Source of the DNA: Desulfobacteraceae bacterium
GTDB lineage: Bacteria > Desulfobacterota > Desulfobacteria > Desulfobacterales > Desulfosalsimonadaceae
DNA: 64,000 bases
Reading direction: 5' to 3'
Assembly: GCA_003599885.1 (NCBI GenBank)
Contig: QZKW01000044.1
Location: forward strand, 1-64,000
Shown here one piece after another: positions 6,253 to 61,385 of the stretch; the first letter of the stretch is position 1; each line of letters starts with the position of its first letter. The notes beneath the pieces are model-generated. The model had not been told where the DNA came from. It searched no databases and saw nothing but the letters and a program-made list of their open reading frames with translations. Both the position numbers and the translations under genes were made by a program.

Positions 6253-6324
6253 TGCCGTTCTCCCTAATAACTTCGTTCGTCTGTATATCTATTACAAAAA
6301 GAATTCTAATTTATCCGGCTGTCA

Positions 6325-6342
6325 TGACTGACTTATCAGTCA
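6325..6342. promoter_or_regulatory. Palindromic operator candidate, copy 1
   Basis: The 18-bp site TGACTGAC TT ATCAGTCA has perfect 7-bp arms around a 4-bp centre. It lies about 73 bp upstream of the leftward RND start. Its size and symmetry fit a TetR-type dimer. No matching regulator gene lies in this locus, so the regulator would be encoded elsewhere. Confidence 0.6.
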
Positions 6343-6494
6343 CTCGCTTTGCTAAAAAAAACCTCCCGCCGGGCGGCGTTCGGCCATGCGCATAAACCCT
6401 CTGCATTCCATTGTTTTATTGACAGGAAACAGAATTGGTTTAGAATGAGTCCGGTTTGCGCATCTTATTTTAAGCTGTCGAGTTTTAATTTTTA

Positions 6495-6512
6495 CGACTG
6501 ACACATCAGTCA
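6495..6512. promoter_or_regulatory. Palindromic operator candidate, copy 2
   Basis: The site CGACTGAC AC ATCAGTCA matches copy 1 at 15 of 18 positions, the differences being the first base and the two central ones. It lies about 112 bp upstream of the rightward RND start at 6624. The two copies probably allow one regulator to control both divergent units. Confidence 0.6.
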
Positions 6513-6623
6513 TTTCACTTATGACACAACCATACCGATAAAAACAAGAAAAATCTTTTCGCCGGCACCCATTTTTAATTCACTTCACCTTTAACTTTAT
6601 ACCGTCCACAACATTCTGATATA

Positions 6624-13916: not shown

Positions 13917-13934
13917 ATTGTTTTCACAATGGGG

Positions 13935-15413: not shown

Positions 15414-15517
15414 CATTTTCTCCTTCATGTATAAAATAAAACAGTTCACAGCACTTTTAAAAGATAAGACATGAAGCATTAAAACACGATTAAAATCACA
15501 TTAAATTTTTCTTATCT

Positions 15518-16408: not shown

Positions 16409-16413
16409 TATCG

Positions 16414-18270
16414 TTACAATAGCCGATCCAGTTTTTTCTGTAAGTTGCGGGCCATTTCCACGGCGCTTTCCCCGCCGGCCCTGGCATTCCCGTAACGGGC
16501 CGCCTCGCCATCCGCAAACAATGACTCAAGCTCCGCCAGTGCCTCCGGATCGATTTTTTTCAGGCGTAACGGCCCGGCCACATCCTGAAACGTCAATACG
16601 CCGGGCTGGAGACGCAACTTGGCCCGCAAATAGGTTTTAAACGCTTCCAGAATCGCGGCGGCCATTTCCGGTGTTCCGATGGCTTGGGCGGCGCTGATCT
16701 CCCGGGCAAGCCGGATACCGGCTTTTTTGGCAAGAGATAAGCCGGGGTCGGTCTTTTTCTTCCGGTAGACCCATGTTCCGGCAAACAGGAGAAAATAGAA
16801 GACCGGGGGCAGCATCAGAACCGCAAGCCCGGCCGGGGAGGAGAGCCAAAGCGCCGGGTCATGAGTCTGCCGGTTCAGAACGCTGTCGTCTTCATAATTA
16901 TGGGCAATCCCTGCTGCCCAGGTTTCTATCTGGCTGCCCGCGGGATCATTGGATAAAAGGCCTTCGGCATCCTTTGCCGTCACCATCCGCGTGGGGCTGA
17001 CGGTCAGGGGGATGGGGGCGGTCCGGGCGGTCTGATACGTTTCGGTGCGGGTGTCGAAATATGACAGCAGCAAAGGCGGAACCGCCGACACATCGGCCCT
17101 CAGAGGGCGGATGGTATGGGTAAATATCTTCCGGTCTCCGGATATTTCACCGGCTGCCCGTTCTGACGGCACCTTAAAATCACGGATCAGGTCCGGCTGT
17201 TTCTGGAGCGGCGGCAGTTCAACCGGTTCCAGAAATTCCGGGCCGCTGACGGCGACCGTCAAGGTGACGGGGTCTCCCACATTTACGGTGGTTGGTGTGG
17301 CTTCTGCCGCTATGCTGTAATCACCCACAAGCCCCGAAAAATCTTCAGGGCGTCCGGCCATTGGAAGTTCTTTCACCTCCAAATCAAGCCTGTTTGACGG
17401 TGCAATCCCCTGCCGATAGACTCCCTGGCGCATGTTTTGATTGAAAAAATTTGAAAAAAACTCATCGCCAAACGGACGACGCTGGTTCCGGTATCCGGTA
17501 AGGGTTTTATACGTCACCGTGACCGGGTCAATGGAAAGAGTGCCGGATCTGCCGGGAATCAGGACTTTCTGGAACGAAAGGGTTGAGTATACCCGGCCAT
17601 TCAGCTCCCCCTGCCCTTTTTCAACAATGATCTCGCCGGAATTGGCGGGAATCCGGTAATACTGTTTGCCGGAACGTGTGTCAACGGGAGGATCGGCTAC
17701 AAAAAACCGGTCCTTGTTTTCCAGAAACGGAATCGAAAAACTGGCGGTGTCGACATCTCCGGCCAGATACCAGGTCACGGTCAACGTGACCGGCTCGCCC
17801 ACATAGCAGCTGTTTTTGGACACGCGCATTCTCAGCTTGAACTCATCGGTTTCCGTTGGCTTTTGGGCCAGAATGCTGACCGGCCGGGTGCTGGCTGTCT
17901 GTCCGTCGGCACTAACCGATATCGGCGGAATTTCGATCCGCCCTTCCCGCAGCGGGATGATCTGGTAGGAAAACACGTAGCCCTGGCGGACATCCTGGGT
18001 CATGCGGCCATTAATGATGCTGATGGAGCGGCTTGAGTTCTGGCTGCCGCCCTGAAATGACACGGAAAAACCATCCATTTGCGAAAGGTCGGGCTGGTCG
18101 GGAGATTCGCTGCCGCTTACAATGATCTGCATGGTCACGGGCTCGCCCACAAACACTTCCGCCTGCGCCAAACGGACCTCCGCCGAAAAGGGCTGCGAGC
18201 CCGCCGATACGGCAAGGCTCAGCATGAATACTAATAACAAACCCCATATGATGCCAAAACCACGGCCCAT
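16414..18270 (-). CDS. batD: BatD family (oxygen tolerance) membrane protein
   Basis: 618 residues. The signal peptide is followed by Ig-like/BatD domains: VRLAQAEVFVGEPVTMQI at the start, then NSCYVGEPVTLTVTWYL, and later EATPTTVNVGDPVTLTVAVSGP. One membrane helix lies near residue 490 (GLAVLMLPPVFYFLLFAGTW) with a cytoplasmic helical tail that reads like DUF4381 tails. BatD is a periplasmic-facing component of the MoxR/Bat system. The gene overlaps or abuts the TPR gene upstream: a GTG at 18276 would overlap its stop, but the ATG at 18270 has AAGGA at better spacing. Confidence 0.88.
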   Translation of the reverse strand: MGRGFGIIWGLLLVFMLSLAVSAGSQPFSAEVRLAQAEVFVGEPVTMQIIVSGSESPDQPDLSQMDGFSVSFQGGSQNSSRSISIINGRMTQDVRQGYVFSYQIIPLREGRIEIPPISVSADGQTASTRPVSILAQKPTETDEFKLRMRVSKNSCYVGEPVTLTVTWYLAGDVDTASFSIPFLENKDRFFVADPPVDTRSGKQYYRIPANSGEIIVEKGQGELNGRVYSTLSFQKVLIPGRSGTLSIDPVTVTYKTLTGYRNQRRPFGDEFFSNFFNQNMRQGVYRQGIAPSNRLDLEVKELPMAGRPEDFSGLVGDYSIAAEATPTTVNVGDPVTLTVAVSGPEFLEPVELPPLQKQPDLIRDFKVPSERAAGEISGDRKIFTHTIRPLRADVSAVPPLLLSYFDTRTETYQTARTAPIPLTVSPTRMVTAKDAEGLLSNDPAGSQIETWAAGIAHNYEDDSVLNRQTHDPALWLSSPAGLAVLMLPPVFYFLLFAGTWVYRKKKTDPGLSLAKKAGIRLAREISAAQAIGTPEMAAAILEAFKTYLRAKLRLQPGVLTFQDVAGPLRLKKIDPEALAELESLFADGEAARYGNARAGGESAVEMARNLQKKLDRLL

Positions 18271-18272
18271 GA

Positions 18273-19577
18273 TCACCAGTCCTTGTCCACATCCTGATAC
18301 CAGCCGGGCCCAACCTGCCGGCGGATTTTCTTGTTTTCCTTTTCTTCCCCCAAAATGCGCTCGGCATCATCAGGCATCAGGGCAATGGGGGAGCCGGATT
18401 CCGGCTGATTGTCCTGATCCTGTAAATCCGCCTGTCCGGCCTGATTCTGCTGATCTTGCGGCTGGGTCCCGGCCTCCTGTTGTTGTTCTGCCTGCCCCTG
18501 TTTTGTCTGATCTGTGGGATCGCCCTGCTGTTTTTGAACGTCCTTATTTTGGCTGTCCTTACCCTGGCTGTCCTTGTTTTGACTGTCCTTATACTGAAGC
18601 AGATCCAGGGCGTTTTTCATCTCTTCCAGGGCAGCTTCCTGATTTTCCGACGCCTCGGGAGTTTGCCCGGCCTTTAACTTATCTTCCGCTTCCTTCTGCC
18701 GGGCCTGGGCCTGATCCAGATGATCTTTGGCAGCCTGGGCCGGATCAGGAACCTGGCCGGACGATGGCGGCGTTGCCGGCTTCCCCGGCTCAGCCCCGCT
18801 GAGTTTTTCGCTGGTTTTCCGGGTTTGCTCCCGCAGCTGCTCCTGCTCTTTCGCCATGTCCTGCAGCGCGTCTTGCGCCTGTTTATTCGCTTCCGGCTGT
18901 TCTGCCTCAGGGGATTTTTTCTCAGGTGTTTGCGATGCATCCGGCTGGGACTGGGCCCGGTCATTCAGGTCCGACTGCTTGTCGATGAGTTCCTTCAACT
19001 CTTCCGCTGCCTGTTTCTGGTTTTGGGCCATCTCCTGCTGCCGGGCCATGGCCTCCTGAATGGATTTCATGGTTCGCCGGACCAGTTCAATATTCTCGGA
19101 CGCATCCTGAATCAGCGGATTGCTGCGATCTTTCGGCGATTTGCTTAACAGATCCTTTGCCTCATGGTAGTAGCGGACGCTCCGGTTCCCTGCCTCCAGT
19201 GCGGCTTTCGGGTCCGCTGCCTGTGCCTGGGTTGCCTTTGAAAATTCAAGGGTGCCGAGATTGTAAAGAGATTCAGCTTCCAGCGGAATGTCCGTTGATC
19301 CCAGGGCGGACTTTTCCCATGCGTCTTTTGCCTTGTCCAGATCGCCTTTCCGGAAGAACGCCGCACCCTTGTTGAAATCAATATAGGCATCCGAAGGTCT
19401 CTCCTTCGCCGCCTGATCGTAGGCGGACAGCGCGTCGTCATAATTTCCGGCTTTGTATGCAGCGTTTCCTTTTTCCACAAGCTCACGAGGAGACTCGGCA
19501 AAAGAGATGGCAGACCCCGTCATCGTTACGGAGACAATTAAAAGAATCAATAAATATTTTAAGTTATGCCGCTTCAT
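18273..19577 (-). CDS. batC: BatC-like TPR protein with long Gln-rich tail
   Basis: About 434 residues. A signal peptide (KYLLILLIVSVTMTGSAISFA) precedes TPR repeats: LVEKGNAAYKAGNYDDALSAYDQAAKERP and FNKGAAFFRKGDLDKAKDAWEKSA. Residues from about 170 onward are a very charged and Gln-rich region with coiled-coil character. It includes a short repeat of the type NKDSQGKDSQ. The C-terminus (PGWYQDVDKDW) is well ordered again and is typical of BatC. The start at 19577 overlaps batB by 14 bp; a start at 19622 would need a 59-bp overlap. It probably scaffolds the VWA proteins in the periplasm (inference). Confidence 0.85.
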   Translation of the reverse strand: MKRHNLKYLLILLIVSVTMTGSAISFAESPRELVEKGNAAYKAGNYDDALSAYDQAAKERPSDAYIDFNKGAAFFRKGDLDKAKDAWEKSALGSTDIPLEAESLYNLGTLEFSKATQAQAADPKAALEAGNRSVRYYHEAKDLLSKSPKDRSNPLIQDASENIELVRRTMKSIQEAMARQQEMAQNQKQAAEELKELIDKQSDLNDRAQSQPDASQTPEKKSPEAEQPEANKQAQDALQDMAKEQEQLREQTRKTSEKLSGAEPGKPATPPSSGQVPDPAQAAKDHLDQAQARQKEAEDKLKAGQTPEASENQEAALEEMKNALDLLQYKDSQNKDSQGKDSQNKDVQKQQGDPTDQTKQGQAEQQQEAGTQPQDQQNQAGQADLQDQDNQPESGSPIALMPDDAERILGEEKENKKIRRQVGPGWYQDVDKDW

Positions 19578-51785: not shown

Positions 51786-51833
51786 ATGGCACGCCCGGAG
51801 GGATTCGAACCCCCGGCCTACGGATTCGAAGTC
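51786..51833. repeat. Left attachment site (tRNA-Arg 3' remnant)
   Basis: 48 bp matching 61308-61355 at 47 positions (G for A at one place). It includes the CCA end, acceptor strand, T arm and part of the anticodon arm on the minus strand, and stops in the middle of the tRNA. It is not a functional tRNA gene. Confidence 0.9.
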
Positions 51834-51952
51834 TCTTTTTTTGCCTGTCATGTTGTTTCATGTAATCTCATTTTTATCTTGATTTTATTACGAATTATCC
51901 TTATTATTCTTCATCTATAATCATCAAAGTTCATGCCATTTCATGAAAAAAA

Positions 51953-51971
51953 GTGGGATAGATGTGGGATA
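51953..51971 (+). promoter_or_regulatory. Putative integrase arm-type sites, left end
   Basis: Two direct copies of GTGGGATA start 11 bp apart, at 51953 and 51964, about 120 bp inside the left repeat. The same pair with the same spacing and flanks occurs at 61233-61251 at the other end. That symmetry suggests arm-type binding sites of the integrase N-terminal domain. Confidence 0.6.
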
Positions 51972-51992
51972 AAATGCAAAGGGGGTAAATAA

Positions 51993-53183
51993 TTGAAGCG
52001 AATAAAATCAAAATTCCCTGGTGTCCGATATCGTGAACATGAAACCCGAAAACACGGAATTAAACCCGATAGATATTTTTCCATCCGCTTTACCGTGGAT
52101 GGCGGGAAGAAAGAAGAGGGTTTAGGGTGGGCATCAGACGGTTGGACCGAAAAAAAAGCCAGTGAAAAACTTTCAGAGTTGAAAACAAATATTAGAATCG
52201 GGCAAGGTGCGCGTTCTCTTTCTGAACAACGTCAAATGTCTGAAGCCGTCCGGAAAGAAACTGAACGATCACAGTTGACAGTTTCTTGTGCCTGGGAAGG
52301 TTATTCGAAAATAGCTGCCAGTAAAAAATCATATGACCGTGAAGAAATGTTTTTCAGATTATGGATTCAACCAGGTATCGGTGCCAGAACTTTACCCGGC
52401 GTTGCTGCAATCCATCTTGAAAAAATAAAAAAAGTCATGGCGGATAATGGCATGGCTCCCCGAAGCATTCAATACTCTTTGGCAATTATCCGGCAATTAT
52501 TCAACTATGCAAAAAAACACGATCTCTTTCAAGGAGACAATCCTGTTAGTAAAGTATCGATGCCGAAATTCGACAACCGCCGAATGAGATTCTTGACTCA
52601 TAACGAAGCGGATCTGCTGCTGGAAGAATTACTCAAACGGAGCAAGCAAACTCATGACATGGCTCTTTTGTCACTATACACAGGCATGAGGGCTGGTGAA
52701 ATCTTTTCGTTGACCTGGGGCGATGTGGACGTTCTGACTGGCATTTTGACGTTGAGGAATACCAAAAATTCAAAAACTCGGTTTGCCTTCATGACAGATA
52801 AAATCAAAGCCATGTTTTTAAGTAGATCGTGTGGAAATGTAAATGACCTTGTTTTCCCTGATCGTAATGGTGGAAAAATTGTTCAGATATCAGAAGCGTT
52901 TACTCGAGGCGTTAATCAGCTTAAATTTAACGAAGGCGTAACAGATAGACGGTTTAAGGTGACGTTTCACACATGCAGGCATACATACGCTTCATGGATG
53001 GTTGAGAGCGGCGCGGATCTCTATGCAGTTAAAGAATTGCTTGGCCATAGCGATTTTAAAATGACGTCGCGCTACGCGCACTTGGGGCAAAATACTTTAC
53101 AGGCAGCAGTTCGGCAAATGGAAGCAATGAAGACAACTATCGGCACGGACATTGTGCAAATTAAGGAAGGTCAAAAACAATAA
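51993..53183 (+). CDS. int: Tyrosine recombinase integrase of the element
   Basis: 396 residues from TTG 51993, which is preceded by GGGGG at 7 nt. An N-terminal arm-binding domain (FPGVRYREHETRKHGIKPDRYFSIRF) is followed by a SAM-like core-binding domain and the catalytic domain. The full catalytic set is present: Arg233 (TGMRAGEI), His326-x-x-Arg329 (HTCRHTYASW), His352 (GHSDFKM) and Tyr361 (SRYAHLG). It recombines the attachment core in tRNA-Arg. It is transcribed inward from the left repeat. No separate excisionase of classical type is adjacent; the AlpA-like or tandem-HTH proteins could serve. Confidence 0.95.
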   Translation: MKRIKSKFPGVRYREHETRKHGIKPDRYFSIRFTVDGGKKEEGLGWASDGWTEKKASEKLSELKTNIRIGQGARSLSEQRQMSEAVRKETERSQLTVSCAWEGYSKIAASKKSYDREEMFFRLWIQPGIGARTLPGVAAIHLEKIKKVMADNGMAPRSIQYSLAIIRQLFNYAKKHDLFQGDNPVSKVSMPKFDNRRMRFLTHNEADLLLEELLKRSKQTHDMALLSLYTGMRAGEIFSLTWGDVDVLTGILTLRNTKNSKTRFAFMTDKIKAMFLSRSCGNVNDLVFPDRNGGKIVQISEAFTRGVNQLKFNEGVTDRRFKVTFHTCRHTYASWMVESGADLYAVKELLGHSDFKMTSRYAHLGQNTLQAAVRQMEAMKTTIGTDIVQIKEGQKQ

Positions 53184-53192
53184 TCCACTTAT

Positions 53193-53268
53193 TCCCGGCA
53201 TAGGTGGCGGCTGATCCCCGTCACTGAAAACCGCCTTCCCTGGGCGGCTGGCCGGGATACACCAGGGA
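53193..53268 (+). ncRNA. Structured leader with two crossing 7-bp stems
   Basis: TCCCGGC (53193-53199) pairs with GCCGGGA (53251-53257) and encloses GGCGG/CCGCC (53206-53210 with 53231-53235). TCCCTGG (53237-53243) pairs with CCAGGGA (53262-53268). The two 7-bp stems cross, so they form a pseudoknot or alternate. It lies between the integrase and the next gene, 21 bp before that gene's start. It could be a regulatory leader or a small RNA; expression is not shown. Confidence 0.35.
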
Positions 53269-53289
53269 CCGAAAAAGGGAACGGATGAT

Positions 53290-54015
53290 ATGAAAAAACC
53301 TTGGGAGGGAATGGAAACTTGGTACCGTATGCGGCACAGAATATCTTTTCAAAATTTTAAACCAGAGTGGGATAAATTTACAGATAAACCGTTCAATAAT
53401 GAAACTGCCATTGAATTTACGAAATGCTTTTTTAAAGTAAATAGATATTTACTTTATACTGATTTTCGATGTTACGTGTTGAATGATGCTCAAAAAGAAG
53501 AAGATCAAAAATTTGAAGATGACCATTTGTGGGAATATGCAACATCTTATATTCAATCATATATTCCGGATCGGACGCCTGAAGATTTAGAAATTGATCA
53601 ATTATTAACGATATGGGCGAAAACCGGACCTGGGCCAAATGAACGGGTGCGGAGACATTGTGTAGAAAAACTCGATGCAGGGCAAATGCTATCTCCTCCC
53701 CTTGCTCGGTTTGTTAATGATATCTTGATAGGTAGAAGCACTCCCATCTCCTCCAAAAAAGGGAAAGACCCTTCTTTTAACCGAAATAGAGATTTTTTAA
53801 TAGCCACAATAATTGATTACCTGCAATTTTACTTTGGATTTAAAGAGAGAGCTCACTATTCAGATAAGCGGTTTTATAACCCTCCGGCAAGCTGCGTTGA
53901 TGTGGTTGGCCTGGCTTTAAAATCTGATCCAGAGATTTGCCCTACCTTTGAAACGATCTTCAAAGCCTGGGGGAAATGGAAACCATTTTTTGTTAATTTA
54001 TTCCCGCTTTCATAA
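53290..54015 (+). CDS. Unrecognised element-encoded protein
   Basis: 241 residues, soluble, no signal peptide or membrane segment, rich in aromatic residues. I do not recognise a family. Notable phrases: LLTIWAKTGPGPNERVRRHCVEKLDAGQMLSPPLARFVNDILIG near 108-148, and RNRDFLIATIIDYLQFYFGF. Predicted helices dominate. It lies alone between the integrase and the AlpA-like regulator, the usual cargo position of P4-like elements. It could be a regulator, an inhibitor or a defence factor; nothing in the sequence decides. The 284 bp after it are AT-rich and gene-free. Confidence 0.75.
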   Translation: MKKPWEGMETWYRMRHRISFQNFKPEWDKFTDKPFNNETAIEFTKCFFKVNRYLLYTDFRCYVLNDAQKEEDQKFEDDHLWEYATSYIQSYIPDRTPEDLEIDQLLTIWAKTGPGPNERVRRHCVEKLDAGQMLSPPLARFVNDILIGRSTPISSKKGKDPSFNRNRDFLIATIIDYLQFYFGFKERAHYSDKRFYNPPASCVDVVGLALKSDPEICPTFETIFKAWGKWKPFFVNLFPLS

Positions 54016-54256
54016 TTTTTTTCATAATTTTAGATAGTTAATTTATTTTTTTGGAACGTTTATTCTACGGTCCATCATTCCCGCCTTTTTCTCCATAGTC
54101 CTTAGCCTTATATTCTTTCCTGACTTTCGCTTCAAAAATCTGTTCTTTTTTTTCCATTTTTCCATTTCCATTTGTCAAACAAAACTTCATTACTTTTCCC
54201 CGATTTTAATTTTTAAAAATGCCAGACTCCATCTCATCAAACATCATAATTGTTCT

Positions 54257-54271
54257 GTTATGATCCATAAC
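54257..54271. promoter_or_regulatory. Small palindrome upstream of the AlpA-like gene
   Basis: GTTATG ATC CATAAC has perfect 6-bp arms and lies 29 bp before the AlpA-like start, within an AT-rich promoter-like stretch. It may be an operator for the element's regulators. Confidence 0.45.
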
Positions 54272-54299
54272 TACTTATTTTTTAAAAGGAGAGTTTATT

Positions 54300-54596
54300 A
54301 TGCGTAGGGATACTTTTAATCAATGCGAAAAGAACAATCGTTCTTCTTGTGTGAGCGAATTTACGCCCGCCCGGAGGTTGGAGTTTTTGAAAGCAATGGC
54401 TGAAAAATGGCCGTCTGCAATCGTCGCAAGAACTGAGATTGAAAAGTTTTCGGGTGGAATGCTTAAAGGCCCTCACCTGGCAAACCTGGCTTGCCCAAAG
54501 GCCGGGGCTGTCGGTCCACCAAGCATAAAAATAGGGCGCAAAGTCGGCTACGAAGTATCCAGCCTGCTGTCCTGGATGGAGTCTCAGATAAAATAA
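54300..54596 (+). CDS. AlpA/excisionase-like HTH regulator
   Basis: 98 residues. The region from about 45 to 98 (VARTEIEKFSGGMLKGPHLANLACPKAGAVGPPSIKIGRKVGYEVSSLLSWME) reads as a MerR-like winged HTH of the AlpA/excisionase class. It has the helix-turn, a wing with a Gly-Arg-Lys tip and the final Trp helix. AAAAGGAG precedes the ATG. It is the first gene of the replication cluster. Such proteins control integrase or replication genes of P4-like elements and can assist excision. Confidence 0.7.
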   Translation: MRRDTFNQCEKNNRSSCVSEFTPARRLEFLKAMAEKWPSAIVARTEIEKFSGGMLKGPHLANLACPKAGAVGPPSIKIGRKVGYEVSSLLSWMESQIK

Positions 54597-54626
54597 CATG
54601 AAACACAAAAACAGGAGACAAAATCC

Positions 54627-54896
54627 ATGATGGATAAAAAATTTTTGTATGAAAAAATGATTGATCAGGCGTTGGATCTTCTCCAGGAGGAAGCCGGTAA
54701 AGACGCCACGTCCCTGGAAGCTGAAAAAACACTTCATGAAATTGTCTGTTTTTGCGCGGCAAGATTGCTGGGCAAAAAGCCCTACCTCGATGCCGATGTG
54801 ATCAAGGCAGCGATTATTGATTTTGATATTGATCAGGTCATTTGTGATTTGTGGTCAGAAATCGAATGCGTAGATTCAATTGGTCACAGGCTATGA
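54627..54896 (+). CDS. Small helical hypothetical protein
   Basis: 89 residues, mainly acidic helices (MIDQALDLLQEEAGKDATSLEAEKTLHEIVCFCAARLLG). No family recognised. It starts 30 bp after the AlpA-like gene with AGGAG upstream, and its stop overlaps the next start by 4 bp (ATGA). It belongs to the replication operon; a primase accessory role is possible but unproved. Confidence 0.7.
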   Translation: MMDKKFLYEKMIDQALDLLQEEAGKDATSLEAEKTLHEIVCFCAARLLGKKPYLDADVIKAAIIDFDIDQVICDLWSEIECVDSIGHRL

Positions 54897-55312
54897 AACT
54901 TATAGAAATTGATATCCGCCGGATTCTGAACCGGGAAAAAACCCTAAATTATTGGGGGATCGGTCCTTATGCCCTGGAAAAATCCCCGCCTGATCCTGGC
55001 CGCAAAATGTTGTTGGAGTATTGCGAAGAAGTAGAAGCGGCGTTGAAGTGGTTGGCAGGATCAGCCGGATATCACCGGAAAACCATCAATAGATATCATT
55101 CGAGTTATGGCCTGAAATGTATAGCGGAAAATATGACCGGGCAATATATTTCAAACGGCGCCATGATTACTGCGACTTTGATCATGGGTTTTCAATATGA
55201 GATTTTTCATTATGGGCCGAACTGCTGTTTTAATATTCATGAAAAATTCATCCGCCTGGCCGAAAAAAAAGCGGCTGGAGCATCAATCAAGAGGCCTTTT
55301 CTATGGCAGTAA
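54893..55312 (+). CDS. Hypothetical protein upstream of primase
   Basis: 139 residues starting MKLIEIDIRRILNREK, at an ATGA overlap with the previous gene. It contains a hydrophobic-aromatic stretch (ITATLIMGFQYEIFHYGPNCCFNIHEKFI) that could be a buried core rather than a membrane helix. No family recognised. Its end overlaps the primase start by 10 bp. Tight coupling suggests it works with the primase. Confidence 0.75.
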   Translation: MKLIEIDIRRILNREKTLNYWGIGPYALEKSPPDPGRKMLLEYCEEVEAALKWLAGSAGYHRKTINRYHSSYGLKCIAENMTGQYISNGAMITATLIMGFQYEIFHYGPNCCFNIHEKFIRLAEKKAAGASIKRPFLWQ

Positions 55313-57744
55313 AATTCAGTAAAAAACAGCTTTCAGATATTCAGGCCGAAATTTCCGGGAAATCCGGTGAAGTCCGTTTGCCTTGCCCTTTGTGTGATCG
55401 CGGGGCGGATGATAAGGCCTTGTCAGTCAATTCGGATTCAGGAAAATATATTTGTCATAGATGCGGCGTTCGTGGCGGCTTAATATCATCGACCGGACAA
55501 ACTAAGCCTATATCCAAAATAAATCCGGAAGAAAAAAAAAGCCTGGATGTAAACTACTACCTGCAGAAATCAAAGCCTGCAAATGACCATCCTTATTTAA
55601 AGGAAAAGTGTATCAAGCCTTATGGCGTCCGAATTTATAAGGATATGCTGTTGGTCCCTCTCCGGAAACCTGGGAATGATAAAGTGCAAGCACTTCAATT
55701 CATCAATCAGGACGGCAATAAACCCCTGGCCCGGGGAAGTGCAAAACGTGGTGCCTGTTTCATCCTTGGCAGCTTATCAAATGAAACCGAGATAGTTTAT
55801 CTTTGTGAAGGTTTTGCCACAAATTCGGCTGTATTTGAAGCCCTTGAAGAAGGTCCGCCCGTTGTCATGTGTGTAGACGCCGGAAATATGAAATCCGTGG
55901 CTGTCGAGATCCGGAAGAAATTCCCGAAAGTCAAAATTGTTTTATGCGCTGATAACGATAGGCATCGAGCTCCGGATGATGTGACATTTGATATCGGCTA
56001 TCGAAAGGCTCGTGATGCAGCAAAGGCCGTTTCCGGATCGGTTGTTATGCCTTCTATGCCTGGAATGGATTTTAATGACCTGGCAAAAGCGGAAGGATTG
56101 GAAACTGTCCGGGATGTTATCCTGGCGGGCGGTGATCCGGGACCGGCGAAACAAAAGGATAATCAAAAACCTGAAAGTCCAGTGGATAAGGATAAGCCCG
56201 TTATTCAGATTAAAGGCGGTGAACTGTCTCAAATAGCGGATATGGCCGAAGCACTGTTGATCGGTATGGGTGCCCCGTTTTACGCTTTAAATGGTCAACA
56301 CTTGGTAAGGCCTGTTGTCAGACCGTCTGAAAAATGGGAGCCATGCGTTGCCCTGGAAGGTATGACCGTAGCTTTTTTGGTGGATCGGATGACGCGGCGG
56401 ATTGTTTGGTTAAAATTTGATGGCCGGTCCGAGGCATGGCTGCCCAAAGATGCCCCCAAAGCAGTGGCGGAAACTATTTTGGCCCGGTCCGGTGTCTGGA
56501 AGTTTCCTCCTTTGCTGGGCGTTGGGAATTGTCCGACCATCCGCCCGGATGGTAGCCTGATTATAAAACCGGGATATGATCCGGAAACCCGATATTTTTT
56601 CCATTTCAATGGAAATTTTCCGGAAATTGCGGAAAATCCAGGCATGAATGACGCCCTGGCCGCTCTTGATCGCCTGCGTGAAGCAGTGTCAACCTATCGC
56701 TTTGCCGATAATATTTCAGAGTCAGTGGCTGTGGCCGCTCTGATTGCGGGTGTGATCCGCCCTGCCCTTGATCATTGCCCTTTTTGTTTGGTGTCCGCTC
56801 CTGTGGCCGGGTCCGGAAAATCTCAACTGGTGGATGGTATTGCTGTGCTTGGGTCCGGTGCCCCTGCGAGCACCATTAATGCTGAGGCGTCGACTGAAGA
56901 GTTAACCGCGTTACTTGACACACTGCTGATAGAGGGGGCAGCGGTTGTCAACCTGGATAATCTGAATAAGCCGGTCACGTCCGCCCGAATTTGTCAACTA
57001 CTGACACAATCGGCGGTGACTGTCCGGATCAAGGGTTTTTCCCGGTCCGTGACTATTTCTCCTCGTTATATCCTGTGCGGCACTGGAAATAATGCAGGGG
57101 TCATTGGGGATCTGGCCCGCCGGACAATCACAGCCGTGATTGATCCAGGGTGTGAGAGGCCTCAGGATCGGCGGTTTGATATGCCGTTTCCTGATTATTG
57201 CCTGAAGCATCGGGCGGATTTGGTCCGGGCTGTCCTGGTAGTGGTGCGGGCTTATGCTGTTGCCGGGTGTCCGGATCAAGGGTTGTCGTCAACCGGCAGC
57301 TTTGAAACCTGGAGCCGGTGGGTTAGGTGTCCTTTGGTATGGCTGGGGATGCAGGACCCGTGGCGAAGTCAAGACGCCCTAACTTCGCAAGATGAAAGCC
57401 TGCAAAATCTTATTGCAGTCCTGGAAGCGTGGTTTGATGTTTACGGGCGAGCTTCTATGACTGGTAAGTATGTAATAGCCCGTTGTAAAGAATCTAACCT
57501 CACTTCAAAAGAAAGTGTATTGCGTGATGCCTTAGAAAATATTGCCGTTGATAAAAAAGGCGAATTTAACCCCCGTATGCTGGGTCATTTTTTGAGGAAA
57601 AATCAAAACCGCATTGTACGAGGATACCAGGTCAAGGCAGCCGGTGAAGACCATCGAGCAATCTGCTGGCAGGTTAGCCGGGTTGATGATGATAAGGATC
57701 AAGTTTTCAATGAAGAAGACTATGTTTTCGAGGCGTGGGAATGA
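55303..57744 (+). CDS. P4-type primase-helicase (zinc ribbon, Toprim, ATPase)
   Basis: 813 residues. A zinc ribbon (C28-x2-C31, C51-x2-C54) leads into a Toprim-like domain with VYLCEGFATNSAVFEAL (Glu169) and VLCADNDRH (Asp217, Asp219). The C-terminal half is a P-loop ATPase: Walker A AGSGKS (502-507), Walker B-like VVNLDN (548-553) and a sensor region (ILCGTGNNAGVIGDLARRTI). The combination is that of satellite and plasmid replication primase-helicases. It would prime and unwind at the element's own origin. It is the largest and best defined gene of the element. Confidence 0.88.
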   Translation: MAVKFSKKQLSDIQAEISGKSGEVRLPCPLCDRGADDKALSVNSDSGKYICHRCGVRGGLISSTGQTKPISKINPEEKKSLDVNYYLQKSKPANDHPYLKEKCIKPYGVRIYKDMLLVPLRKPGNDKVQALQFINQDGNKPLARGSAKRGACFILGSLSNETEIVYLCEGFATNSAVFEALEEGPPVVMCVDAGNMKSVAVEIRKKFPKVKIVLCADNDRHRAPDDVTFDIGYRKARDAAKAVSGSVVMPSMPGMDFNDLAKAEGLETVRDVILAGGDPGPAKQKDNQKPESPVDKDKPVIQIKGGELSQIADMAEALLIGMGAPFYALNGQHLVRPVVRPSEKWEPCVALEGMTVAFLVDRMTRRIVWLKFDGRSEAWLPKDAPKAVAETILARSGVWKFPPLLGVGNCPTIRPDGSLIIKPGYDPETRYFFHFNGNFPEIAENPGMNDALAALDRLREAVSTYRFADNISESVAVAALIAGVIRPALDHCPFCLVSAPVAGSGKSQLVDGIAVLGSGAPASTINAEASTEELTALLDTLLIEGAAVVNLDNLNKPVTSARICQLLTQSAVTVRIKGFSRSVTISPRYILCGTGNNAGVIGDLARRTITAVIDPGCERPQDRRFDMPFPDYCLKHRADLVRAVLVVVRAYAVAGCPDQGLSSTGSFETWSRWVRCPLVWLGMQDPWRSQDALTSQDESLQNLIAVLEAWFDVYGRASMTGKYVIARCKESNLTSKESVLRDALENIAVDKKGEFNPRMLGHFLRKNQNRIVRGYQVKAAGEDHRAICWQVSRVDDDKDQVFNEEDYVFEAWE

Positions 57745-57809
57745 ACCCCCTACCCCTTTGCTTAATAAGACCGTGAAACTCGTTAAAGCAAGCGCTTTAT
57801 CGAAATATA

Positions 57810-58067
57810 ATGATGTTACAGTTTAAAAAATCTCAAAAAAATATATGCCCTTGGTCCGCTTCTGTTGGATCGCTTTATAAATGGCCGGTGGCGATGGGTC
57901 CCCTCTGGGCCTGTGACCATGCACGGGTTCGCAAGTCCCGATATTTTACCGTGTATAACTTTGGAAAATCGTATGGAAAAATGGAATATATATCATTTTT
58001 CGGCATATTGACTAATTGTTTCCGGTGTTTTGGTCTTTACGATAAACCCGGTTGTTTAAGTGAATAG
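57810..58067 (+). CDS. Doubtful small reading frame after the primase
   Basis: 85 codons, Cys- and aromatic-rich, no recognisable family and no ribosome site. Its stop falls exactly on the stem of the terminator at 58063. Otherwise the 57745-58112 stretch is gene-free. Probably a chance frame. Confidence 0.2.
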   Translation: MMLQFKKSQKNICPWSASVGSLYKWPVAMGPLWACDHARVRKSRYFTVYNFGKSYGKMEYISFFGILTNCFRCFGLYDKPGCLSE

Positions 58068-58093
58068 GGCAAATCTGCCCTATTTTATTTTTT
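58063..58093 (+). terminator. Rho-independent terminator after the replication operon
   Basis: A perfect 9-bp stem (AATAGGGCA / TGCCCTATT) with a 4-base AATC loop is followed by TTATTTTTT. It ends the transcript that includes the primase. Confidence 0.85.
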
Positions 58094-58112
58094 GAGTGTG
58101 AAGGATCTGATC

Positions 58113-58511
58113 ATGCAGAAAAAAAACCGAAGTTTTTCACCTGAAAACCTGCTGTCTGAATTTTCACCTGAATTTTTAAACCCGGTCTTTTGCCGGGAAT
58201 GGATTATAAAAAAAATTCATCCTGAAGGTGCTCGGTGCCCTCATTGCTACATGGAAATTTCCGATATCCGGGAACTTGAACGATTTTGGCGCGGTGATCA
58301 AGTCAAATGCCCTGGATGCGCGCGAAAATTTACCGCTCGAAGCAAAACCATACTGGCCGGGATAGGTGCGGATGATCGAAAATTGATTCTTTTTATGCTG
58401 TTTTTTGCCTTAAAAATGCCGATTTCTCAAATTGAAAAGTATGCAAAAATGGATAAAAGAACGCTTTTTTTATACCGTCATCGATTCGGATTATCTCATA
58501 AAAATGAATGA
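58113..58511 (+). CDS. IS1595-like zinc-ribbon/HTH protein without transposase catalytic domain
   Basis: 132 residues. CPHCYMEISDIRELERFWRGDQVKCPGCARKFTARSKTILAGI is the zinc ribbon found at the N-terminus of IS1595-type transposases. The next 45 residues (LILFMLFFALKMPISQIEKYAKMDKRTLFLYRHRFG) match their HTH. The chain then ends; the DDE/N catalytic domain is absent. ATG 58113 has AAGGA 8 nt upstream, and no further frame continues the domain. It is therefore a stand-alone DNA-binding module, perhaps an element regulator, rather than an active transposase. Confidence 0.75.
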   Translation: MQKKNRSFSPENLLSEFSPEFLNPVFCREWIIKKIHPEGARCPHCYMEISDIRELERFWRGDQVKCPGCARKFTARSKTILAGIGADDRKLILFMLFFALKMPISQIEKYAKMDKRTLFLYRHRFGLSHKNE

Positions 58512-58723
58512 TTTTATAATTTTTTCAAGGTGTTAAATATAAATTCCATAGAATATGGAATTTATAAGAGTTGGTGAGTTAACGAGTTATAAGAGATGGT
58601 TTTATCCTTCGCAAGAAAACTGTCAGAAAAATGAATGGAAAAAATGCAGTAAAAAAAATGACATATTATAGAAGTCCGGCAAAACTAACCGCCTTAACTC
58701 GTTAACTCACCGGAAGGCATAAA
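58512..58723. promoter_or_regulatory. Palindrome-rich noncoding stretch, origin or operator candidate
   Basis: 212 bp, strongly AT-rich. It holds a 27-bp perfect palindrome (58539-58565, 12-bp arms, 3-bp centre). It also has a 17-bp perfect inverted repeat with arms at 58573-58589 and 58695-58711 (GGTGAGTTAACGAGTTA), each arm containing a smaller symmetric GTTAAC core. The right arm abuts the ribosome site of the tandem-HTH gene. The stretch could be the replication origin of the element or an operator for the HTH protein. Confidence 0.55.
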
Positions 58724-59140
58724 ATGAAAATCCAAAAAAAATTTCATACCATTGCTGGCGTTGCTGAACTGTTGGCCGTTTCTGAAAAGTCCGTCCGGCG
58801 GTTGATTGATGTCGAAATTATTCCCTGTGTAATGTCTACCATAGGTCCCCGGATTCATAGAGATGACCTTTTGGGATATGTCCAAAATATCCTGAATCAA
58901 TATGCTGAAGAAGAAACCGGGCAATTGCCAAAGGAGATCAGGGAAAACCCTCAACTTATCACCATCGAGGCTGCTCAGTGCGCCTTGGATTGTTCCCGTT
59001 CAAAAGTCCGGAATCTGATAGAAGTCGGGGCCGTGGCTGCCTGTCGTGTAGGCCGCCTAATCCGGATATTGGCTGAATCAATGGAGCAGTTTCAATCTGA
59101 AAAGATTTTTCAGTTTATTAAAAAATCGACGGTCAGATGA
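58724..59140 (+). CDS. Tandem excisionase-type HTH protein
   Basis: 138 residues with two MerR/excisionase-like HTH units: FHTIAGVAELLAVSEKSVRRLIDVEIIP (about 7-34) and LITIEAAQCALDCSRSKVRNLIEVGAVAACRVGRLIRI (about 78-115). The second has a typical Gly-Arg-Leu wing. A GGAAGG ribosome site precedes the ATG. Directly upstream is a 17-bp inverted repeat suited to a dimeric or two-headed DNA-binding protein. It could be excisionase, origin-binding protein or repressor. Confidence 0.75.
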   Translation: MKIQKKFHTIAGVAELLAVSEKSVRRLIDVEIIPCVMSTIGPRIHRDDLLGYVQNILNQYAEEETGQLPKEIRENPQLITIEAAQCALDCSRSKVRNLIEVGAVAACRVGRLIRILAESMEQFQSEKIFQFIKKSTVR

Positions 59141-59241
59141 TTTTAAATGATGTCATGATGGTTCGATTATTATTAATTTTTACGATATTTATATCTTCAA
59201 GCGATGGGGAATGGGCCCCAAAGCCTCCTTTTGAAGGTGAC

Positions 59242-59273
59242 ATAATGGGCACCGGAAGTCCGGTGCCCATTAT
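59242..59273. repeat. 32-bp near-complete perfect palindrome
   Basis: Two 15-bp arms (ATAATGGGCACCGGA and its exact complement) are separated by only two bases. It lies between the tandem-HTH gene and the small gene at 59312. No T run follows on either side, so it is not a standard terminator. With its minimal loop it could extrude as a cruciform or bind a dimeric protein. Confidence 0.8.
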
Positions 59274-59311
59274 CAAGCACAAGTCAAGTTTTATAAATAG
59301 GATTAAAAAAA

Positions 59312-59506
59312 ATGAAGTTTGAAGATCGAGTAAAGGAAAAAATCCAGGCATCTGGCGGAACCATAAGCTTGGCAACCGCGATAACGCTTTGTGCTAATGA
59401 ATATCCAAGAGAACACAAAGATTATCTCTCCCGGTTTACGGCAGGGAAAGCAACTTCTTTGAATGAACTCAGAGTCTATTCTATATCCAGCAATTCAAAA
59501 AAATAA
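59312..59506 (+). CDS. Small hypothetical protein
   Basis: 64 residues (MKFEDRVKEKIQASGGTISLATAITLCANEYPREH...), charged and helical, with no recognised family. It follows the long palindrome by 38 bp. The ribosome site is weak (GGAT). The next gene starts 34 bp after its stop. Confidence 0.5.
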   Translation: MKFEDRVKEKIQASGGTISLATAITLCANEYPREHKDYLSRFTAGKATSLNELRVYSISSNSKK

Positions 59507-59539
59507 TGCTGACCCTGAAATAAAATTTGAGGTTATTCC

Positions 59540-60208
59540 ATGAAACAGAAAATTCAATACATTTCTTCAGATAAAGTACCTTATTATTCTATGCTGAGTG
59601 ATTATAAATGGGTACCTGACTTTGTAAAGCTGGAGGCGGCTAGATTTAAATTATTGCAGCTAAAAAACCAAGAACATGACCCATATATGCTTACGCGGGA
59701 AGAATTTTTGGAGCAAATCCGCGAACAATGGCAGGATTATGAGAATTATCGCTTGGAACGAATGAAACGATATTTAAATAATTTTCGTTTTAAAGGTTCA
59801 AACCCTTTCGATAGCTATATTATTTTGAAAACTGAAGTCCCCCCTTTTCTTCCATTTGAACAATTTGAGTCCGCTATTCGTGAAATGGATGGTTTGGGGA
59901 TTTCATCTGAAGACGTTCAAAAAAACAATTTAAGTATCATCGATCGCCAAAAGTCTCTTGAGAACTTAATTAAAAAGCTTTGTCCGAAAGATTTTTTTGT
60001 CATGTCTGGAGGCAATGTTGATTTCGATGTCCGTGAAAAATATGTCACCCGTTGGCGTGAATTGCAAAAAAAGGTAGATTTGCCCCTTGCTCCGAATGGG
60101 ATTTTGCTTAAAGAATCTCCACGTGAGGAAAAAAGAGCCTGGATGGAATTGGTTGGTCATGAATATGTAAACCCACATGCCGACTTGACTCCGGATTTCA
60201 ATGAATAG
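59540..60208 (+). CDS. Unrecognised element-encoded protein
   Basis: 222 residues, soluble, helical and charged; no signal peptide. I do not recognise a family. Phrases of note: EEFLEQIREQWQDYENYRLERMKRYLNNFRFKGSNPFDSYII and DFFVMSGGNVDFDVREKYVTRWRELQKKVDLPL. GAGG lies 8 nt before the ATG. It sits in the second half of the element with small Cys-rich proteins. Possible roles include interference with a helper phage, replication accessory or defence; none can be read directly. Confidence 0.75.
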   Translation: MKQKIQYISSDKVPYYSMLSDYKWVPDFVKLEAARFKLLQLKNQEHDPYMLTREEFLEQIREQWQDYENYRLERMKRYLNNFRFKGSNPFDSYIILKTEVPPFLPFEQFESAIREMDGLGISSEDVQKNNLSIIDRQKSLENLIKKLCPKDFFVMSGGNVDFDVREKYVTRWRELQKKVDLPLAPNGILLKESPREEKRAWMELVGHEYVNPHADLTPDFNE

Positions 60209-60230
60209 ATTAATAACAGATGAATGAAAA

Positions 60231-60485
60231 TTGGAATTCTCAGAGATCGCGGGCACCATAACCAGAAATATTGATTGTCCCTATTATGGCCGGTGTCTGG
60301 ATCATGAAGCCAAAAAGGATTCAAACGGGTGGAATTGCGAAGGGTGCCGATATGAGCAAGAAAAAGATGATCAACCGGAAACCGATTTTTCCGAATATTA
60401 TATTTTGCTTTGGGCGATTTTTAAACCAAACCTTTATGCAGAATATAATGCCACAAAAAAATTTAATCCTGAAAATATTGAATGA
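60231..60485 (+). CDS. Small Cys-rich, probably zinc-binding protein
   Basis: 84 residues beginning at a TTG. DCPYYGRCLDHEAKKDSNGWNCEGCRYE has four Cys in a C-x5-C...C-x2-C order suited to zinc. Similar short Cys-box proteins occur in deltaproteobacterial mobile elements as I recall, with no known role. The start is uncertain because no ATG is in frame and no ribosome site is clear. It ends at the terminator at 60485. Confidence 0.55.
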   Translation: MEFSEIAGTITRNIDCPYYGRCLDHEAKKDSNGWNCEGCRYEQEKDDQPETDFSEYYILLWAIFKPNLYAEYNATKKFNPENIE

Positions 60486-60524
60486 AAGCTGGATGAACGC
60501 CGAAACGGTCATCCAGCTTTTTTT
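60485..60524 (+). terminator. Strong rho-independent terminator
   Basis: A perfect 12-bp stem (AAAGCTGGATGA / TCATCCAGCTTT) with a 12-base loop is followed by a T run. It closes the second operon of the element. Confidence 0.9.
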
Positions 60525-60606
60525 ATTTCTTTACCTGTCCATCTGTTGATTATCGGCATAAAATTATTTCTTGATCATTTATAAAGTTTTTGCGAAAGTA
60601 AAAACG

Positions 60607-60769
60607 CCTACAATTTTACAAAGCGTCACCCGGACGTTAAACGGGATTTTTGTTTATACCGTAAATAAACCATTTTGCGCTATGGCTCCGGATCTCCGAA
60701 AGGACCGGGCAAAATTCTTTGTAATTTTGTAGGCAGCCTAAGGCGCATTTTTGTTTATGAGGTAAATAA
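60607..60769. repeat. Repeat-structured leader before the last element gene
   Basis: A 17-bp inverted pair (60607-60623 and 60717-60733, 15 of 17 matched) lies with a 23-bp direct repeat (60646-60668 and 60747-60769, 20 of 23 matched). The second direct copy contains the ribosome site and first base of the start codon of the gene at 60769. It may be a duplicated leader or a structured RNA. Confidence 0.5.
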
Positions 60770-61152
60770 TGAATACTCAAAAAAAAAGCATTGCAACAAA
60801 GAGCCCCGAAAGCGCGCGACAAAAGATTTCTACAAGTTCAGTAATGAAAGCATTGTCCAAAATTCCCTTATGCCCTGTATGCGGTGGTCACAGATTCAAA
60901 CGAAGCAAACTATATCCCGAATTCAAGTATTGCAAAGTTCATGGCATCAGGATGCACATATTTGATTTCACTCAGTTTGAGCCGATGTTCAATGCGATGT
61001 CCATGGTTAATCTGTTTCTAAGTTATTGTGATTTGTTCAAGGTTAAGCCTGTTTTTGAACCAGGCTTGGACATTAGCATGGATCTGGTGGATTTTTTGCA
61101 GGAAGTAACAGATACCTTCAGTAAGCTGAAAGGAGTTTATTACGATCAATAA
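60769..61152 (+). CDS. Zinc-ribbon-like hypothetical protein
   Basis: 127 residues. A basic N-terminus is followed by a likely zinc site (LCPVCGGHRFKRSKLYPEFKYCKVHGIRMHIFD, C-x2-C...C-x2-H) and a helical C-terminus. No family recognised. GAGGT precedes the ATG by 7 nt. It is the last gene of the element, followed by a terminator and the arm-site pair. Position near the attachment end fits late cargo. Confidence 0.65.
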   Translation: MNTQKKSIATKSPESARQKISTSSVMKALSKIPLCPVCGGHRFKRSKLYPEFKYCKVHGIRMHIFDFTQFEPMFNAMSMVNLFLSYCDLFKVKPVFEPGLDISMDLVDFLQEVTDTFSKLKGVYYDQ

Positions 61153-61183
61153 GATATAAATTTTCTTGAGAGAATCAAAAATG

Positions 61184-61219
61184 AACCGGATTAACTGAAA
61201 AGTTGATCCGGTTTTTTTT
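61184..61219 (+). terminator. Rho-independent terminator at right end of element
   Basis: An 11-of-12-bp stem (AACCGGATTAAC / GTTGATCCGGTT) with a 6-base loop is followed by eight T. It ends the transcript of the gene at 60769-61152. Confidence 0.88.
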
Positions 61220-61232
61220 GTTGATAAAAAAA

Positions 61233-61251
61233 GTGGGACAATGGTGGGATA
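61233..61251 (+). promoter_or_regulatory. Putative integrase arm-type sites, right end
   Basis: GTGGGACA and GTGGGATA start at 61233 and 61244, 11 bp apart. They match the left-end pair (51953, 51964) in sequence, spacing, orientation and flanking A runs. They lie about 57 bp inside the right attachment repeat. Confidence 0.6.
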
Positions 61252-61264
61252 AAATTATAATAAA

Positions 61265-61301
61265 TAAAAAAAGGGCTTACGATTTTAAGCGTAAACCCTT
61301 G
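61265..61301 (-). terminator. Terminator of tRNA-Arg carried by the element
   Basis: On the minus strand GGGTTTACG pairs with CGTAAGCCC (8 of 9), followed by seven T. It is a close but not identical copy of the terminator at 51744-51779, so the homology at the two junctions extends beyond the tRNA. Confidence 0.75.
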
Positions 61302-61307
61302 ATTTAT

Positions 61308-61355
61308 ATGGCACGCCCGGAGGGATTCGAACCCCCGACCTACGGATTCGAAGTC
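61308..61355. repeat. Right attachment site within tRNA-Arg
   Basis: 48 bp identical to 51786-51833 except for one base, covering the 3' half of the intact tRNA-Arg gene. It marks the right boundary of the element. Confidence 0.9.
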
Positions 61356-61385
61356 CGGTGCTCTATCCAGCTGAGCTACGGGCGC
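61309..61385 (-). tRNA. tRNA-Arg (anticodon UCG)
   Basis: 77 nt including an encoded CCA. The acceptor arms GCGCCCG and CGGGCGU pair fully with one G-U. D arm, anticodon loop CUUCGAA (anticodon UCG) and T arm GGGGG-TTCGAAT-CCCTC are all regular. It reads CGA. Its 3' half is shared with the attachment repeat, so the integrated element restores the gene. Confidence 0.95.

Follow-up and report, generated by a model that had tools for sequence, protein, structure and literature searches.

The 64,000-nucleotide stretch analysed here (contig QZKW01000044.1; hereafter the window) carries, in a tRNA-Arg gene, an element whose satellite nature is well supported. As judged from its genes and their relatives, it probably, though by no means certainly, belongs to a new lineage of phage satellite that would redirect the capsid assembly of a helper. 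The first-pass annotation had described a satellite-like element in tRNA-Arg between 48-bp direct repeats, and both descriptions held. A repeat search gave a span of 9,522 bp from start to start. Other genomes have elements of similar size, layout and integration habit. A single mismatch separates the two repeats, leaving identical stretches of 30 and 17 bp.

51786..51833, no strand: left attachment repeat, 48 bp (47/48 positions shared with the right copy)
61308..61355, no strand: right attachment repeat, 48 bp, in the 3' part of tRNA-Arg
61309..61385, minus strand: tRNA-Arg(TCG), the integration site (ARAGORN; Rfam tRNA)

The G+C content of the element is 42.1% compared with 49.8% and 48.8% in its flanks. 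The tRNA-Arg/tRNA-His/selB neighbourhood is kept across the genus, and the left neighbours of the element were present at none of the fetched loci of this type. A second such element is present in the same host genome. The host is a bacterium related to sulfate reducers; its order includes Desulfosarcina widdelii.

Genes for integration, replication and regulation were recognised along with several small frames:

51993..53183, plus strand: tyrosine integrase (Phage_integrase 3.8e-29)
53290..54015, plus strand: o241, no family match in Pfam, PHROGs, PADLOC or NCBIfam
54300..54596, plus strand: o98, AlpA-like by resemblance, no significant family
54627..54896, plus strand: o89, no significant family
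54851..55312, plus strand: o153, start uncertain (phrog_9576 5.1e-7 and phrog_17839 1.6e-5, both families with no assigned function)
55303..57744, plus strand: primase-helicase (phrog_29234 1.7e-99, phrog_2249 7.7e-50)
58573..58711, no strand: perfect inverted repeat with 17-bp arms and a 105-base spacer
58724..59140, plus strand: hth138, double HTH_17 / excisionase-type regulator (HTH_17 1e-11 over two stretches, TIGR01764 2.6e-11)
60769..61152, plus strand: o127, Cys-containing protein directly 3' of the c4-2 RNA, no significant family

The family matches agree with the earlier calls of an integrase and a primase-helicase. The catalytic residues of the integrase were judged by eye only, against what we take to be the tyrosine integrase motif; the protein is 43–49% identical to the integrases of L028, L029, L033 and L037. 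The primase-helicase has a full-length relative in G271 (42%). The primase query confirmed no relative in the genome and viral contigs; weak similarities to it are widespread. As to the AlpA-like regulator proposed previously, an HTH_17 regulator is indeed present as hth138, but the frame at 54300–54596 has no significant family match. This frame, o98, may be called AlpA-like by size, position and resemblance only, being 31–33% similar to short frames adjoining the primase genes of L029 and L037. The inverted repeat lies directly upstream of hth138 and is a possible operator.

In scans of Pfam, PHROGs and NCBIfam (Pfam only for o61, o64 and o84), no structural or terminase family was matched apart from the family link of o64, and no conjugation gene appeared among the matches to Pfam, PHROGs, PADLOC and NCBIfam. 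The element had been said to contain no virion or conjugation genes. The second part stands; the first is true for whole genes only, because the o64 family and the C-terminal tail of a phage head protease are related. Like phage satellites, the element is thus a discrete mobile unit with integrase and attachment repeats in which a full virion gene set is absent.

Two RNA elements and a possible target were predicted:

53193..53267, plus strand: int-alpA RNA, just under the cut-off (RF02996 34.7 bits, cut-off 35.8)
60606..60623, plus strand: putative target arm of the c4-2 RNA, 16/18 complementary to 60717–60734
60673..60752, plus strand: c4-2 antisense-type RNA (RF02944 47.5 bits, cut-off 41, E 5e-8)

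The L114 stretch matching the int-alpA RNA exceeds the cut-off, at 38.0. Of the six tRNA elements that carry o222, only three yielded a C4-class RNA. Two elements that share a genome have different paired arms, which are complementary within each element. When arm pairs were shuffled, 2/300 single-base shuffles reached 17/18; the window arms, at 16/18, fall under this threshold, so the test gives them no support.

The P4 CI RNA is of C4 type, and the two predicted RNAs together recall the control of phage P4. The element resembles P4-like satellites (P4/P2) in its tRNA-type integration, integrase, primase-helicase (alpha-like in role), HTH regulator, predicted C4-class antisense RNA over the Rfam cut-off and size of about 10 kb. 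Psu and Ogr_Delta, presumably the Pfam models for P4 psu and delta, had no match in the element in family scans to E 1 and E 0.1; the proposed late-gene regulator described below is putatively related in role to delta. The element differs from P4 in that o222 belongs to a family unrelated by sequence and in the order of its host. The P4 gene set serving as the basis of comparison for P4-like satellites is that given in PMC8628076.

Several of the unknown genes look like a module for hijacking a phage; these and the neighbouring o84 lie in the right half of the element:

58092..58511, plus strand: zn139, zinc-ribbon and HTH protein (34% over 118 aa, 1.9e-25, to a G178 prophage gene)
59312..59506, plus strand: o64, small scaffold-tail-like protein (52.9% over 51 aa to L026)
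59540..60208, plus strand: o222, family marker (leave-one-out 3.6e-41 for the window member)
60231..60485, plus strand: o84, protein rich in Cys, with an uncertain TTG start (58.6% over 58 aa to L026)

The unnamed o222 family has eight members in eight genomes. Six lie in tRNA elements of 9.2–10.7 kb, all flanked by repeats (that of L026 only 16 bp), and two in the Mu-like elements L070 and L055. The gene adjoining o222 encodes the major capsid protein once (L052; phrog_1005 1.7e-36), a head protease twice (L054, phrog_3244 5.3e-15; L070, phrog_328 2.7e-40) and a scaffold-like protein four times (the window, L026, L053 and L068), while no recognised head gene stands beside the L055 member. The order o64–o222–o84 is kept in L026 at a different tRNA, with 33–59% identity, and relatives of o84 occur in L032, L054 and L055. 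On the strength of this adjacency, o222 is proposed to be a capsid redirector.

No relative of o222 was found in 50,697 phage records, in plasmid records queried with the L053 member or in viral contigs by pattern scan, and there was no BLAST match to the G178 prophage at 1e-4. The protein is predicted to be helical at low confidence; its two-sequence AlphaFold model was unusable (pLDDT 45.5). A PDB profile search with the eight sequences yielded 30 matches at E 5 or less, all of them partial: they were designed coiled coils or otherwise helical, the best being a designed protein at 0.0032. The same search with alignment A3 gave no matches. Matches in G419, G456 and G742 (9.9e-7 to 1.8e-5, partial, in frames of 474–535 aa) were dropped as coiled-coil cross-matches; in the leave-one-out test the G419 frame reached 1.1e-6 at best.

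A profile built without o64 recovered it at 9.9e-13. The relation of its family to the head protease was seen with the L053 and L068 profile, which matched the tail of the G178 protease at 3.2e-8 as the best non-seed of 1,270 frames; none of 1,000 shuffled G178 tails reached the score of the real one. A profile of the window and L026 members alone gave 0.53 against the phage tail, and o64 had no BLAST match to the G178 prophage at 1e-4, so that the window protein appears linked to the phage solely via its family. The scaffold-like proteins of L053 and L068 had no relatives in phage records, and the scaffold-tail profiles did not recognise seven genes that occupy the protease/scaffold position in other phages.

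In G178, the counterpart of zn139 lies close to the terminase genes of what looks like a complete prophage. The zn139 family was found in 28/291 genomes, and its relative in L116 had no match in phage records. From its homology, zn139 is proposed to be a late regulator, probably an activator. The capsid, protease-tail and tape-measure genes of the same prophage all match cargo of sister elements: the full-length major capsid protein of L052 is 43% identical over 333 aa (1e-104) to the prophage capsid, and L032, which like L033 carries a tape-measure-like gene, matches at 2.2e-24.

The satellites that have been studied well are those of Enterobacterales, staphylococci and vibrios. Capsid-forming PICIs are satellites carrying their own capsid genes; L052 resembles them in its capsid protein, but here there is one head gene per element, and the window element has no complete one. 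PLE11 and cf-PICIs are satellites known to carry a tape measure gene (PMC12987554), as L032 and L033 carry tape-measure-like ones; the window element is without one. The o64 family may resemble SaPI CpmB and Rcm as a small helical satellite protein that seems to share a segment with a phage scaffold, CpmB being described as out-competing the native scaffold via shared motifs (PMC12409344). No homology was found as far as tested, and the phage partner here is a head protease, through its C-terminal tail. Similarly, o222 may be compared with PLE TcaP and P4 Sid, external scaffolds and satellite-specific proteins thought to set capsid size (PMC10945586), in being satellite-specific and possibly helical, but no sequence link was found. 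Searches of open-licence PMC for satellites of Desulfobacterales and for Mu-like satellites found no paper.

From these relations we infer helper dependence, activation by zn139 and capsid redirection by o64 and o222. The element would insert into tRNA-Arg by its own integrase, replicate by its own primase-helicase and be kept silent by the HTH regulators and the C4-type antisense RNA, as in P4. As none of its own genes can be recognised as coding for a terminase, portal, capsid or tail protein, it would need a helper for packaging, most likely a siphophage of the G178 type. On helper induction zn139 would switch on late genes, and o64 would be a competitor of the phage scaffold in the manner of SaPI CpmB. 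The capsid size would be set by o222, which in seven of the eight elements has a head or scaffold gene as its neighbour. Carrying relatives of a phage's late regulator and capsid scaffold, the element may thus spread in phage shells fitted to it.

The same adjacency and homology would also be expected of a satellite whose o64 and o222 merely block phage assembly, protecting the host population without aiding packaging, and a short scaffold-tail protein could be dominant-negative in the role of a scaffold. This is unlikely: the narrow size range of the six tRNA elements (9.2–10.7 kb) suggests a packaging limit, and some vehicle is required for elements to spread to tRNA genes in distant genomes. 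It is also quite improbable that the element is a shrunken prophage or a helper-free integrative element with leftover phage-like genes. No helper was seen in the host genome with three terminase-type models (PF03354 and phrog_15 none, phrog_2 one weak match at 9.1e-4), and the terminase-bearing L117, L118 and L120, which share the primase of the G178 prophage, may be remnants themselves. Nevertheless, the main reading frames are all open, the o64–o222–o84 order persists in L026 in spite of divergence and another tRNA, and the RNA arms diverge between two elements of one genome yet pair within each.

The unrecognised cargo had also been put forward as a place to look for a defence system. An integrative island with a new anti-phage system would leave room for o241 and o127, which had no significant family match and may conceivably act in defence, and a HigB toxin is found in L114 and AbiEii beside L122. 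Pfam, NCBIfam and PHROGs lent this no support, and PADLOC, run on ten proteins (o61, o64 and o84 left out), gave one weak match, of hth138 to mad1 (E 0.0031), covering 24 residues of a helix-turn-helix. Three conserved cargo genes (o64, o222 and zn139) group instead with capsid or terminase genes, and a defence island is thus very unlikely.

Beyond the satellite reading preferred here, a broader proposal is put forward only tentatively. The o222 gene might mark an undescribed satellite superfamily, both tRNA-integrating and compact Mu-like transposing, in which o222 would be a new capsid redirector and whose members, with their sisters, would be parasites of one siphophage lineage. If so, each element would have taken a different piece of that lineage's assembly line, be it the scaffold tail, the capsid, the tape measure or perhaps the terminase. 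Apart from this proposal, the satellite lineage is present in Desulfobacterales and beyond, and its cargo is alignable to one apparently complete prophage, so that the acquisition of capsid tricks can be compared member by member. Some members have a scaffold-like tail, one has the capsid gene, one a protease and one a tape measure. The comparison singles out o222, a small unnamed family, as a candidate gene for capsid control, and the two RNA arm pairs might form an immunity code used by two elements within a single host.

The Mu-like L070 is compact, at about 8 kb, and carries MuA, o222 and a Mor-like activator as well as a head protease in truncated form. A P-loop is present in its frame at 6038, which looks like a MuB-like ATPase, though the L055 MuB had no tblastn match at that place. 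A target duplication (15/25 end bases) was unconvincing, as five end pairs score 15 and one 19 regardless of duplication. L116 was ruled out as a terminase-only element by its portal, protease, capsid and tail genes. L117, L118, L119, L120 and L122 look terminase-only within the stretch seen but could be what is left of prophages. L119 nearly duplicates part of L116 (TerL 97.7%).

A discrete element in tRNA-Arg, as proposed in the first-pass annotation, was borne out by the tRNA and a 48-bp repeat pair that encloses the element.

Features of the element in the window
51786-51833 and 61308-61355: 48-bp direct repeats, one mismatch, spacing 9,522 bp
53193-53267: int-alpA RNA (Rfam, just under the cut-off)
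58092-58511, plus: zn139, zinc-ribbon and HTH protein
59312-59506, plus: o64, small protein
59540-60208: o222, without a significant match to any family of Pfam, PHROGs, NCBIfam or PADLOC
60673-60752: c4-2 RNA (Rfam, over the cut-off)
61309-61385, minus: tRNA-Arg(TCG) (ARAGORN)

Twelve plausible genes and one doubtful 61-aa frame lie on the plus strand between the repeats, and the G+C content is 42.1%, compared with 49.8% and 48.8% in the flanks. The tRNA-Arg(TCG) stands beside tRNA-His, upstream of selB, in seven of the eight same-genus loci examined; the stretch of the eighth, L080, held tRNA-His only. No empty site was identified, because the window's left neighbours occur in none of these eight loci. 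The integrase matches Phage_integrase (3.8e-29) and shows 43-49% identity to the integrases of loci L028, L029, L033 and L037; the first three of these loci are elements as well, whose repeats at the tRNA measure 60-73 bp. Within L033, of the same genus and integrase type, positions 3734-8273 hold a tape-measure-like 1202-aa gene, an HNH endonuclease and a weak small-terminase match. The phage-type primase-helicase (813 aa) has a full-length relative in genome G271 (42%) and some match at 1e-20 in 22 of 291 genomes. PADLOC returned a single weak match for ten element proteins. A perfect 17-bp inverted repeat at 58573-58711, arms 105 bases apart, directly 5' of the double-HTH gene, is a possible operator.

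Genome searches with o222, over overlapping sets of 389, 389 and 395 genomes, gave matches in 6, 6 and 5 genomes, and convincing members were found in eight distinct genomes: the window's own, G271, G325, G280, G128, G270, G228 and G714. Three weak matches from the 395-genome search were dropped as coiled coils. When each member was left out in turn, it was recovered at 2.4e-23 to 5.2e-53, with the best outsider at 1.1e-6. The family was absent from 50,697 phage records (searched with the window and L053 members) and from 72,556 plasmid records (L053 member). Six of the eight members belong to elements that sit at a tRNA and are flanked by direct repeats.

Sizes of the o222 tRNA elements
Window: 9.5 kb
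L026: 10.0 kb (repeat of 16 bp only)
L052: 10.2 kb (Desulfosarcina widdelii PP31, NZ_AP021875.1, order Desulfobacterales)
L053: 9.2 kb
L054: 10.7 kb
L068: 10.4 kb

The remaining two members are in Mu-like elements with MuA (phrog_310, 1.5e-80 in L055 and 6.9e-104 in L070); MuB is supported in L055 and, by reading only, in L070. Both L070 (2921-10492 of G228:C99) and L055 (G270:C83) are compact, with few or no virion genes besides MuA and o222. L070, of about 8 kb, additionally encodes a short head protease and a Mor-like late activator, and a non-phage gene follows the element; a contig end lies near L055. In L053, a 291-aa frame at 6706-7581 is built from three copies of a unit of about 90 aa and has the look of CxxxC-type zinc fingers.

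The gene adjoining o222 differs between elements. In L052 it encodes a major capsid protein (phrog_1005, 1.7e-36) that matches 42 phage records, several of which bear that annotation. In L054 it encodes a head maturation protease (phrog_3244, 5.3e-15), and in L070 a Mu-type head protease that is short, with 204 aa for the 339 positions of the model (phrog_328, 2.7e-40). An o64-family protein takes this place in the window, L026, L053 and L068, and no recognised head gene adjoins o222 in L055. Scans of other L052 and L054 proteins gave replication proteins or no match. L032 carries an o64 protein but lacks o222, and its positions 13104-18783 also hold a gene resembling a tail chaperone, a relative of o84 and a tape measure gene.

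The probable helper type is that of an apparently complete siphophage-type prophage in genome G178. An integrase, a primase and a zn139 relative are present in it, as are genes for the small and the large terminase, the portal, the head protease, the major capsid protein, the neck, the tape measure and the tail; between large terminase and portal (L116, 13697-14254) lies a membrane-protein frame with, by reading only, an ion-channel look. At 1e-4, 41 of 238 frames from the elements compared match this prophage. The capsid protein of L052 does so at 43% over 333 aa (1e-104), the tape measure of L032 at 2.2e-24, and the scaffold-like proteins at 4.6e-5 (L053) and 1.4e-5 (L068). From the window zn139 alone matched (34% over 118 aa, 1.9e-25), and its counterparts in L026 and L114 reached 1.1e-16 and 1.4e-21. 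Relatives of zn139 occur in 28 of 291 genomes, some inside transposase-looking frames of 335-544 aa. Six of ten stretches fetched (L116, L117, L118, L119, L120 and L122, from five genomes) have the relative upstream of and co-directional with terminase genes, assigned by PHROGs or BLAST, directly or with one gene between. A zinc-ribbon/HTH gene heading a packaging operon suggests a late activator, the role that delta has in P4, and zn139 is a candidate for such a role. In the stretch seen, L117, L118, L120 and L122 have genes for both terminase subunits, small and large, but none for a portal or a capsid; they are either satellites or remnants of prophages, and the terminases of L122 have an AbiEii gene next to them. 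Three terminase-type searches did not find a helper prophage in the host genome, with one weak match to phrog_2, which we take to be a terminase model.

A profile built from six satellite segments found the L054 head protease as its best non-seed among 714 frames (4.5e-4; next 0.18). Among 1,208 frames, this profile (0.0017) and a second satellite motif profile (8.4e-5) both matched a 467-aa frame of G178, its head maturation protease (phrog_53, 6.4e-71), with the motifs in the satellite order. A profile of the whole L053 and L068 proteins aligned to protease residues 313-465 at 3.2e-8, ahead of every other non-seed among 1,270 frames. When this tail was shuffled 1,000 times, no shuffle reached the real score (33.7 versus at most 10.4 bits). 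In the record of Burkholderia phage KS10, a nested scaffold gene is annotated in the last part of a head protease gene of Mu type. Speaking against the link, both motif profiles missed all seven phage genes tested from the protease/scaffold position, KS10 among them (three carry the annotation protease or Mu I, and the other four were picked by position). The window o64 was recovered at 9.9e-13 by a profile built without it, and a profile of the window and L026 proteins alone failed to reach the G178 tail (0.53). The o64 family is thus scaffold-tail-like, and the window protein is a member of it whose own direct link to the phage is weak.

Borders, family, adjacency, homologies and RNAs can be read in the sequence, and every functional step of the following scheme is one that we infer. 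At rest, the c4-2 RNA (directly 5' of o127) and the HTH regulators would keep integrase and replication repressed. Upon helper induction, zn139 would switch on late genes and the primase-helicase would amplify the circle. o64 may then compete with phage scaffold, as CpmB is described to do, while o222 may set capsid size in a Sid- or TcaP-like role; scaffold competition is also proposed for Rcm (CpmB and Rcm, PMC12409344; Sid and TcaP, PMC8628076 and PMC10945586). Precedents exist for satellites as such, for scaffold mimics, for late regulators of satellites and for tape measures carried by satellites (the last in PMC12987554). On psu and delta the window element falls outside P4 membership. 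As far as the literature searches can tell, three things are new: the lineage, the family of o222, and the pattern in which sister elements carry different pieces of one phage type's assembly line.

RNAs were searched in 12 sources, namely the window element, seven loci and four others. Six of them yielded a C4-class RNA (window, L114, L054, L032, L029 and L052), and just three of these six are tRNA elements with o222, of which there are six in all. The int-alpA RNA exceeded its cut-off in four sources (L114, L054, L032 and L055), and neither RNA was found in L026, L053, L068, L028 or L033. DNA of the c4-2 stretch occurs in 3 of 116 genomes: partially in G240 and G042, and at two places in the window's own. 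The second copy there is L114 (G000:C89), a whole 10,348-bp contig and another element of this kind. It encodes an integrase, a primase, a zn139 relative and a HigB toxin, and has its own c4-2 RNA and its own int-alpA RNA. Its integrase DNA shows 73% identity to that of the window over 165 bp, and similarity between the two c4-2 stretches is 80% over 164 bp. Both stretches fold better than 200 of 200 shuffles (z of -3.8 for the window and -3.6 for L114). A putative 17-18-nt arm pairs with an upstream stretch at 16 of 18 positions in one element and at 16 plus one GU of 17 in the other, and cross-pairing between the arms of window and L114 gives only 9-10 Watson-Crick pairs. The putative arm pairs would fit two immunity groups, such as those of P1 and P7; the comparison covers two sequences, and no null test supports the window arms.
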